Source of the DNA: Chitinophagales bacterium
GTDB lineage: Bacteria; Bacteroidota; Bacteroidia; Chitinophagales; JADIYW01
Direction: 5' to 3'
NCBI GenBank assembly: GCA_019694955.1
Contig: JAIBAX010000001.1
Coordinates: forward strand, 1-64,000
Length of the DNA: 64,000 nucleotides
Each line of letters starts with the position of its first letter. Position 1 is the stretch's first letter. Under the pieces are notes generated by a model that was not told the DNA's origin, ran no database searches, and saw nothing but the letters and a program-made list of their open reading frames with translations. A program made the translations under genes and the position numbers. Shown here piece by piece: positions 18,261 to 44,955 of the stretch.

Positions 18261-18352
18261 ATAACAAGATGATTTATTAAGTAGTTTACTCGTGTTCACG
18301 TTTCAGGGAATTGAATTTTACTAATGGGCTATTTTATAATTACTTTTGTGAT
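18261..18352 (+). repeat. Dispersed intergenic element, copy A
   Basis: ~92 bases related to 34502-34602 (inverted) and 44811-44906. It starts ATAACAAGATGATTTAT and ends ATTACTTTTGTGAT. The outer inverted repeat is degenerate here (TAGTTTA/TGGGCTA) but still pairs fully if G-U pairs are allowed. The inner palindrome is reduced to CGTGTTCACG. The right end holds an exact TACTTTTG -7-like box (18341-18348). Confidence 0.8.
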
Positions 18353-18610
18353 GAGATGTTTTGCGCCAGTGGGTGAAGTGGTACCCCGCAGTGAGCGGTA
18401 GCGAGGGAGGAGTACAAACGGAACACACGCCAGGGTGCCATTTGTTTGAATGATAAATCATATTGCAATTTTTTTTGAGTACAGTTAATTACGGTTCTTA
18501 TATCGGATGGTTTGCTTCACCCATTTTTACTTTTGCAGTAAAATGCGTTCGTAAATCAGGAATTTTTATGTCTATCTATTTTAACTTATTTAGGATTAGC
18601 CTATGTGTTA
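18353..18610. other. Gene-free stretch with a GC-rich, structured segment
   Basis: No convincing gene. At 18364-18445 the DNA is much richer in GC than its surroundings and can fold around GTACCCCGC/GCGAGGG-type arms. TGGGTGAAG at 18370-18378 recurs inverted as CTTCACCCA at 18515-18523, bounding a ~150-base unit. It lies directly after element copy A. Possible small RNA, decayed gene or mobile-element remnant; nothing identifies it. Confidence 0.4.
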
Positions 18611-22225: not shown

Positions 22226-25200
22226 TTATTGTATGCTAATTTTTAATGCATACGTCCCATTATTTATGTTTACTGTTACTAAATACATGCCGGCAGGAAG
22301 TGAAAATTCACCCAATGAAAATGTTTCCGTATGATTTCCGGATACCTTATTTGTTGGTGGCATCAATACGCCTATTTTTTTTCCTGATAAATCAAATAAA
22401 TCTATAGAAAGCGTAGATGCTTCATGGAGGGCGTAGGATACGTTTACTTCATCAGAAACTGGATTTGGAAAAATTTTGATAGCATAATTATTTAGTGGAG
22501 CAGTAATCACTTGTTTCGAGCTACTCGGAAATACCGTTATTCCATCGCTGGAACTAACCGTGGAAATTAAACCTGATAAATTCTTGCACTTGATGTTTAT
22601 ATAATACAAAGTGTTTGCATTTAAGTTTAGACCAGTTTTTGTAAAGGATGTTGCACTACCAATATATACCCAAGGTGAAACATTATTTACCCCGGGAGCA
22701 GTCCCAATGCCATAGTAATACCCTTTGATTCCAGAATTAACGTCAACAGCAGGTTGCCAATTTCCACTCAAAGTCGTCATATTTGTTTGGCTGTCAATAT
22801 CAATAGAGTCGGTACCATCATTTACGACAGCAGGAGGATTTGGAGCACTGAAATCTATATTTATATAGGTGCCTTTTCTTAAAGAAATATTATTACTATT
22901 GTCTGTTACTAAGGTAAGAATACGTCCACCCGGTCTATCAGGAGAGATATTGGAGTAACGTATGTCATTAGAACTTGCACTACCTACAGAAACAAGTTTA
23001 GTTGTATTCCTATTTTTATATACCGTCACATAGTCTACACTAAAATTACAGCCGCCACTTCTAAAAGAAATATAATTTCCCACTTGCAGAGGTGTGCTGT
23101 CTATCCATGAAGTAATGAGTTTGTCATTGACATATACTTCGATTTTACCGGAAAATCTATTGTACATGATTTTGTAATCATAATCAAAGTTTACCTGAAA
23201 AGGGAACACTACATCTTTTACTAAGTAAAATGTGTCGTTAATGGTTTCGTAGATTTGCAATTTGCCACCATTGTCAATCCTGGCATATACGAAATAAGAG
23301 TTGCCTCGATTTTCTAAGTTTGGAGAACTGCACATGAAATGTAAGCCCGCTCTTCTATTTGTTCCAGTACCGGATATTTTGGCGATATAGTGATAAAGAA
23401 AAATACTGTCGCTATTCTGGTTAACGAAAGCTGATAACCTAGTGTTTCCGTTTGACTCATCCGATTGAATCAGTCTGTTGCTTGCAGAAGTCCATATGCC
23501 ACTCGGTTCTATCCATTCAGGGTGGATGGTGGTTTTAGCAAAATCGTCATTGAAGAATCCGTTACCGCCATTCGCCCGCCAAGTATAGTTGCTATAATCG
23601 AGTACTGCATAAAACCGATTTTTAATGCCAGATAGTGCATCATTGTCAACAAAGCTAGCAGTAAATCCACTACTTACCCAACCGGGATTGCTCACTTGGG
23701 ATGTTGGACGTACTGAATCAATAGTGATTGGTGTGCATTGGTATACCGCCTTAAATCCCGGTTTAGTGGTTGCAACATCTGATTTAAATCGCAAAGTAAT
23801 CGAAGCACCGGAGGCATTCACCGTTCCTGGTCCGGTAAGTCCGGAGTAACTTCCTATCAATGGAGCATTAACGGATGGCCCATCATATAACCAGAGCGAA
23901 TCATATCCTGCTTCTAACTCAAATTGGGAAAAATTAAGCGTTGTCAGTACATTTCCGGGGGGAGTTATTGTATAAGTGAAATTTTCATTATCATAATGGT
24001 TTCGTTCTGGGCCACCCATATCAAAAATAGAATCTGAACAGGGCAATATCTTACAATCAGAGAACTTGTCTCTAATGGCATTCCAAAGTTCCGGATAACC
24101 ATCGTCATACCCCAATGTCCACATACCAATACCGCCAATACCTTGTTGATTGACGATGTCATATTTTTTGGCAAGACTCAAAGAATCATCAATCCAAAGT
24201 TGATTCCAATTGCCGGAAGTTTGATAGGTAAAATAGGGTGTGAAGCTGGCGTTGTTCCATTTCTTATTATTATACCAACCATTTACATTGTCGCGCATGG
24301 ATTTATAGGTAACCGAGGAAGAATTTGCCGATCCGCCGACAGTTGCGGAAGGAACAGCATCGCTGACAGTTTGCCATTTCCTTCCATAATACGGTACCGC
24401 CAATAATAACTTATTAGCAGGCACGCCCTGCTTTAAATAATAGGAAATACTGCGGGATTGCGAATAATTATAGCTTGTTTGAAAACTGTATAACGGTCCA
24501 TTCGGACCTGCTTGCGAACTACCACTGTAATAGTAGTCATATCCCATTATTATGAATAAATCTACATAGTTATTTAAATTGGAGATGTCAAAAACACTAT
24601 TCCAATCAACAGAATAAACAGCCATGGTAACTTCAGCTCCAGGAATTGCTGCTTTTAGCTGATTGGAAAAATCCTGAACAAAAGCGGTCATTGCAGCCTT
24701 GCTGGCGGAGGGAACACCTTCAAAGTCGAGGTTTACGCCATGTCCGCCCCTGCTTTGTAAAAGACTGATACAGTTGTTGATAAAAGTTTGCTTGGCAGTA
24801 GAACTAGCAAAGAAAGTAGCATGACTAGAAAATAGCGTTGCACAAAAACTTATTTTCTTGCCATTGTTTTTTGCAGCAGTAACTGCCGATGAACCGCTCC
24901 AATTAAAAGAAGCATTGGTGTTGTTGCCTGTGGTAGGGCTAATGGTATAATCAAAATAGCATAAATCTGATAGCAAATTCCATTGGTAATTGTTATGTAC
25001 CGTGCTGGATAGCCAGTAAGGATGCCAACCGAAAACGCGTTTGGTGCCTATGGAACAGGTGGTAGTTTTTTGTGTATTGGTTACTGGCGCAGAGAGCGGC
25101 GTTTTCCAGTAATCATCCCATTCTTTTTCTGTGGAAAATTTGAATTTTTGGTAGAACGTACTTTCTTCCTGTAAAATAGATGTATGTTCTTGCGAATAAA

Positions 25201-34323: not shown

Positions 34324-34501
34324 ACATGTGTCATGCCAATTTATGTCCGAATATTGTAAAAAAAACGTGCACTCAGGAACGTAAAACACTTGCGTTTAAA
34401 AGATTTTCTCTGCTCGCGACGAATTGGTCGGGACTTGGCATATTCTTGGTGACTATGCGGCTAAGAAATAACCGAAACTAATTTTGCTAACATCATAAAT
34501 A

Positions 34502-34602
34502 ATGACAAAAGTAATTATTCAATAGTCCATTAGTAAAATCCAATTCCCTGTTCACATGGAGACACGTGAACAAGAGTGGACTATTTTATAAATCATTATG
34601 TA
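34502..34602 (-). repeat. Dispersed intergenic element, copy B (inverted)
   Basis: ~101 bases matching copies A (18261) and C (44811) in reverse. It has a perfect 9-base outer inverted repeat AATAGTCCA/TGGACTATT (34521-34529 and 34577-34585) and an inner 22-base arm GTTCAC...GTGAAC (34550-34571). On the minus strand it ends in an exact TACTTTTG (34506-34513), which faces hemF. Confidence 0.82.
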
Positions 34603-34670
34603 CGGTAAAAATAAAAAGGTTCGTTCCAAAATTTACGTTAAAAAGAGGCGTATGCCTACAAAAAGCATCC

Positions 34671-44743: not shown

Positions 44744-44810
44744 ATGAGAAAGAATTTGATGAAAAAAACTTTAACATATAATTAGTTTTTTAGTGGTTAG
44801 TGGTGGGGTT

Positions 44811-44906
44811 ATAACAAGATGATTTATAAAGTAGTCCGCTCGTGTTTACGTGTCGACACGTGAACAGGGAATTGGGTTTTACTAATGGACTAATTACTTT
44901 TGTGAT
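44811..44906 (+). repeat. Dispersed intergenic element, copy C
   Basis: ~96 bases. Outer inverted repeat TAGTCC/GGACTA (44832-44837 and 44887-44892). Inner near-perfect 22-base palindrome around GTGTCGACAC (44844-44865). The right end has TTG, 20 bases, then an exact TACTTTTG, a complete promoter-like arrangement reading rightward. Copies A and B have 27 bases at that spacing. Confidence 0.83.
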
Positions 44907-44955
44907 TATAAGCCTTTTGAACGTATGGACAAATCTATCTGCTTTTTGTTTCTTT

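Follow-up and report, generated by a model that had tools for sequence, protein, structure and literature searches.

A MITE family with TWA target-site duplications in a Chitinophagales bacterium and its probable IS630-like mobiliser

The repeats and their family

The window, a stretch of 64,000 nucleotides (C103:1-64000) from the 4.14 Mb draft genome of a Chitinophagales bacterium assembled in 103 contigs, contains three related repeats in its intergenic DNA (Table 1). Proteins with type IX secretion tails are also encoded in the window, from which the host can be placed in Bacteroidota. The first-pass annotation of this DNA had described the repeats as a family with an outer inverted repeat and an inner palindrome. 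They are real: every word said to be shared is present in all three places, and both the outer arms and the inner palindrome are found in the consensus, whose RNA fold has a predicted energy of -36.7 kcal/mol (z -6.4). Each copy bears its own damage. About half of the inner palindrome is deleted in copy A, the flanks of which, TAA and TGA, are one change apart. The left end of copy B is decayed (GTACATAATG) and the duplication on this side is lost, while a 7-bp deletion is present in the right arm of copy C.

Table 1. Coordinates of the repeat copies and their parts in the window
Feature	Position	Strand	Evidence and remarks
Copy A of MITE	18262..18351	+	90 bp; covariance model match 88.5 bits, E 3.9e-11; alignment
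Copy A, left target-site duplication, TAA	18259..18261	+	direct reading
Copy A, right target-site duplication, decayed to TGA	18352..18354	+	direct reading
Copy B of MITE	34503..34603	-	full length, 101 bp; covariance model match 108.1 bits, E 1.5e-14
Copy B, right-end TWA flank, TTA on the - strand	34500..34502	-	
Copy B, inner palindrome GTTCACGTGTCTCCATGTGAAC	34550..34571	-	direct reading
Copy C of MITE	44812..44905	+	94 bp; covariance model match 108.8 bits, E 1.1e-14
Copy C, left target-site duplication, TTA	44809..44811	+	same as right TTA
Copy C, right target-site duplication, TTA	44906..44908	+	same as left TTA
Copy C, left terminal inverted repeat TAACAAGATGATTTATAAAGTAGTCC	44812..44837	+	23/26 to the IS630-like IS end in relative G007
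Copy C, inner palindrome GTTTACGTGTCGACACGTGAAC	44844..44865	+	direct reading; reverse-strand self hit

The whole-genome search proposed at the first pass gave many further copies. Using a covariance model, about 105 copies of this 101-bp family were found, mostly intergenic and dispersed over the genome (137 rows, reduced to ~105 distinct places after removal of opposite-strand repeats; 107 matches at E<0.001 in the genome stretches searched). BLAST with one copy against the whole genome recovered about 40 places with E from 1e-46 to 1e-16. The core pattern CAGGGAATTGNNTTTTACTAATGG had 39 hits in the genome versus 0 with the reversed control, and the left terminus together with TWA had 52 versus 0 in the control. 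The repeat family is thus far above chance expectation.

Between two TWA trinucleotides, the consensus reads TAACAAGATGATTTATAAAGTAGTCC ACTCGT GTTCTCGTGTCGACACGAGAAC AGGGAATTGGATTTTATTAAT GGACTATTTTATAATTACTTTTGTGA. Its terminal inverted repeats (TIRs) are imperfect, 26 bp long and identical at 20/26 positions, the inner palindrome takes up 22 bp, and a stretch of about 16 nt on the 3' side is unpaired. An element of 101 bp (<200 bp) that is non-coding and bounded by terminal inverted repeats has the form of a MITE. The copies fall into several groups; the median identity to the nearest neighbour is 0.85, rising to 0.98 for the best independent pairs, so that most of the amplification was not very recent. 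Two of the copies (L099 and L100, G000:C9:15313-15410 and 23934-24031), 8.6 kb apart, have identical flanks and belong to a segmental duplication; the identity of the flanks extends over 780 bp and reaches the edge of the sequence compared.

A search of related genomes had also been suggested. The family was absent from 60 relatives, a set with 12 genomes of the same taxonomic family and none of the same genus, and no real match to the element was found in the viral contigs, phages and plasmids searched. Scanning of named genomes with the pattern GATTTATAAAGTAGTCCA gave four loci; the three that were inspected or scored proved to be 18-bp chance matches, and the fourth had no match to the model.

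Target sites and genomic context

Looking for target-site duplications and empty sites, as had been recommended, was productive in both respects. TWA stands on both sides of 56 scorable copies, and the two trinucleotides agree in 51 of them (29 TAA/TAA and 22 TTA/TTA, with 5 discordant; binomial p 6e-11), which gives a 3-bp TWA duplication. Two copies (L006 and L128) are inserted at TAA in the TIR of another copy, with duplication of TAA, and the interrupted host copies can therefore be read as the empty sites. In one nested example, TTTATAA-element-TAAATCATCC corresponds to TTTATAAATCATC of the intact arms.

These duplications help to decide between the two classes, MITE-like or REP-like, that the first-pass annotation had offered together. 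REP repeats are tied to RAYT proteins and are not known to make a target duplication. A family of REP/BIME type, mobilised as single-stranded hairpins by a RAYT (Y1 HUH) enzyme, would likewise be palindromic, intergenic and high in copy number, and there are three Y1_Tnp matches in the genome, two of them above the Pfam cut-off. They belong to three different RAYT/IS200-like genes (G000: L176:1402-1953, L177:1099-1545 and L178:1465-1938). However, none of these genes adjoins a copy, the nearest lying about 7 kb away, the element is bounded by a 3-bp TWA duplication at both ends, and these ends match those of an IS630-like IS (see below). Single-strand HUH/REP mobility is not known to produce target duplications. 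A REP-like origin is, in our opinion, highly improbable. The MITE half of the description stands, being based on the TIRs, the TWA duplications, the ~105 copies, the nested copies with their empty sites and the IS found in relatives.

The copies concentrate between convergent genes. Among 78 copies with clear neighbours, 38 are convergent, 32 tandem and 8 divergent, versus 654, 1846 and 920 control intergenic TWA sites (464 kb; p 3e-10); these counts are approximate, as gene calling followed a simple open-frame rule. Both kinds of orientation of the element relative to genes occur.

Eleven of the 39 scorable insertions (L009, L003, L010, L018, L019, L028, L011, L059, L136, L116 and L122) have their target site exactly at the TAA that ends a gene, and the stop is rebuilt by the duplication, so that the gene would be left unharmed by what may be called a safe landing. 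The number expected was 3.6 when intergenic TWA sites of like context were taken from the whole genome (P 5e-4), and 6.8 when the TWA sites in the copies' own gaps were used (P 0.02). The excess is strong against random or context sites and weaker against the own gaps, and it is therefore suggestive only.

Folding and the question of selection on RNA structure

The element folds well both as RNA and as DNA, which is expected anyway for a long inverted repeat. It had been proposed earlier that the changed outer arms of copy A, still paired through G-U, hint at selection on RNA structure. The pairs themselves were confirmed, since copy A has U-G at three positions that are T-A, C-G and C-G in the consensus, but their value as a sign of selection was not. 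Selection on RNA should favour G-U among rare changes, defined as changes at paired positions of the + strand that are found in no more than three copies. G-U and A-C were equal among them (25 versus 26), and the rare one-sided changes had no strand preference. Over all copies the ratios of G-U to A-C were 148/119 in the outer and 43/39 in the inner helix, counts that include shared ancestry.

The compensatory changes that a covariance model might have revealed were absent from the outer helix, where 0/24 pairs were changed on both sides. Taken together with the parity of G-U and A-C, this leaves ordinary decay as the explanation of the G-U pairs in copy A. In the inner helix, four pairs were changed on both sides, against a shuffle mean of 4.0. 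The number of doubly changed cells and the covariation score were above nearly all shuffles, an excess that relatedness alone can yield. The most common double change, T-A to A-T (8/29), is common to one group of copies and may therefore be a single event.

A structured RNA element (cis-regulator, sRNA or terminator) whose pairing is maintained under selection would account for the stable predicted hairpin, for the four inner pairs changed on both sides and for the enrichment near the 3' ends of genes. The + strand also folds better than the - strand in 83/103 copies, an advantage arising because the consensus already has G-U pairs. The results given above on rare changes, on the outer helix and on the shuffles speak against such a role, as does the occurrence of both orientations relative to genes. 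In addition, no structured-RNA match above the gathering score was obtained with Rfam 15, which found only a tRNA in the window. We consider conserved RNA function improbable here. No host function is needed to explain the element.

Transposases in the genome and the partner IS in relatives

It had been remarked at the first pass that no transposase is nearby. This is correct and, for the matching type (DDE_3), holds for the whole assembly: the 103 contigs yielded no DDE_3 gene, so that the family is probably orphaned in this genome. As the genome is a draft, an IS could also be unassembled. No IS interior was recognisable inside the MITE, its match to an IS being confined to the TIRs.

The match was found in a relative. 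Among 12 genomes of the same family, the left TIR had only three matches, all in G007 and all of them IS ends, with 0 in the reversed control. The IS end TACCAAAATGATTTATATAGTAGTCC is identical to the left end of the MITE at 23 of 26 positions and has the same register to the duplication; the right TIR is matched less well (17/26). The MITE shares its TIRs with an autonomous IS, though not with one in its own genome. It is about 1.16 kb long, begins with TACCAAAATGATTTATATAGTAGTCC, ends with GGGCTATTTATTATTTCACTTTGGTA and is flanked by TAA on both sides. It encodes an HTH protein together with a DDE_3 protein containing PPYSPELNPAEKMW (Pfam DDE_3 E 9e-19), the transposase being either split over two frames or frameshifted. 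The HTH_33 and HTH_23 domains exceed the Pfam cut-off, and the transposase combines HTH and DDE_3 as IS630/Tc1-mariner enzymes do.

The same transposase group occurs in 11/398 genomes of the order. IS copies of this group with TACCA ends were collected from G007 (L180, L184, L194/L204, L196 and L198), from three further loci (L207, L210 and L211) and from G287 (L205, L216, L219, L220, L222, L224, L226 and L228). The eight copies in G287, a genome in a single contig, form two groups with 98-99.9% identity within each and have different flanks, which indicates recent movement. A 3-bp duplication was found in 15/15 measured IS copies from five genomes of the order (14 TWA and one GTA/TAC). The 2-bp TA duplication that marks IS630/Tc1-mariner elements is thus not what the partner group makes, and it is therefore called "IS630-like" here rather than a typical member. 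A second IS630 type is present in G007 (L190, L191, L192, L197 and L199), with ends TATTAACCCG.../...GTTAATAA; read by eye, it appears to have the canonical TA only, with TAA at the right edge of every copy.

The classic makers of TWA/TNA duplications are the IS5/PIF-Harbinger transposases, and the 3-bp TWA duplication would fit a MITE moved by such an enzyme. In the own genome, however, there are no DDE_Tnp_1_2 and DDE_Tnp_4 genes, and the IS630-like IS whose end the TIR matches has TWA duplications of its own, which makes an IS5/PIF-Harbinger mobiliser a very remote prospect. DDE_Tnp_1 is represented by one fragment at a contig end (L095, G000:C56:1-414); the contig starts within the 3' part of the gene and does not contain the remainder of the IS.

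Proposed origin and comparison with known repeats

Summarizing these data, it may be concluded with a probability of about 0.9 that the repeats are ~101-bp non-autonomous MITEs moved in trans by an IS630-like DDE_3 transposase, most likely that of an IS since lost. The matching end and duplication in the IS of relatives, together with the lack of DDE_3 here, point to an IS630-like IS, lost or unassembled, as the likely mobiliser. The main gap in the case for this mobiliser is that the matching IS is missing from the own genome. Judging from the sequences, an IS630-like (Tc1/mariner-related, DDE_3) transposase would bind the TIRs in trans and excise the element in a cut-and-paste manner; its source would most likely have been an IS no longer present in this lineage. 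Insertion at TWA (TTA/TAA) sites would follow, with a stagger of 3 bp, and the trinucleotide would be duplicated by repair. Copies landing downstream of genes, chiefly between convergent ones, would be tolerated and retained and would now be decaying through ordinary mutation. A further-reaching proposal, that the IS630-like transposase group changed from a 2-bp TA to a 3-bp TWA cut and that TAA stop codons serve its MITE as safe places to land, appears rather unlikely as a whole.

The closest known counterpart is RUP of Streptococcus pneumoniae, a 107-bp element with 108-110 copies per genome and IS630-Spn1-like TIRs, which is AT-rich, tightly folded with paired TIRs and over-represented between convergent genes (PMC2229807, PMC3049150). 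The authors took the convergent bias to mean that insertions downstream of genes are tolerated (PMC3049150). The likeness concerns size, copy number, IS630-family TIRs, folding, AT-richness and convergent bias, and it is put forward as an analogy of kind only. RUP differs in targeting TA, whereas TWA is duplicated here, and in living in a host of another phylum; its partner IS is present in the same genome, whereas the likely partner of the MITE is known from relatives and is absent from the own genome. The family can thus be described as a RUP-like MITE belonging with an IS630-like group in which TWA, not TA, is duplicated.

The partner IS resembles IS630/Tc1-mariner elements such as ISY100 in its HTH, its DDE_3 domain with the PPYSPELNP motif, its TIRs and its length of ~1.16 kb. 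The IS630 and Tc1/mariner elements studied make a 2-bp TA duplication (PMC2170065), in contrast to the 3-bp duplications of the partner group. For Fot-type pogo elements, of the eukaryotic IS630-Tc1-mariner group, 3-bp TAA duplications are reported, and for Sailor TATA (PMC7386202, PMC8533490). Fot-type pogo is similar in having a 3-bp TAA duplication in an IS630-related group; it differs in being eukaryotic and in using other transposases, while the family described here has both TAA and TTA relative to the orientation of the element. Correia/NEMIS, ERIC and REP/BIME are also small palindromic intergenic repeats of bacteria, but as repeats they are distinct, and the ends of Correia and ERIC are TA (PMC2229807). 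In a partial literature search, no reports were found of TWA duplication in bacterial IS630 elements or of IS630-type MITEs in Bacteroidota.

The repeats are explained as a transposon family, and an RNA function is no longer needed to account for them. An IS630-type MITE family is thereby added to Bacteroidota, with its likely autonomous partner named. An IS630-like group that duplicates 3 bp, TWA, although its family is defined by TA, makes the change of the strand-transfer stagger in Tc1/mariner elements testable in bacteria.
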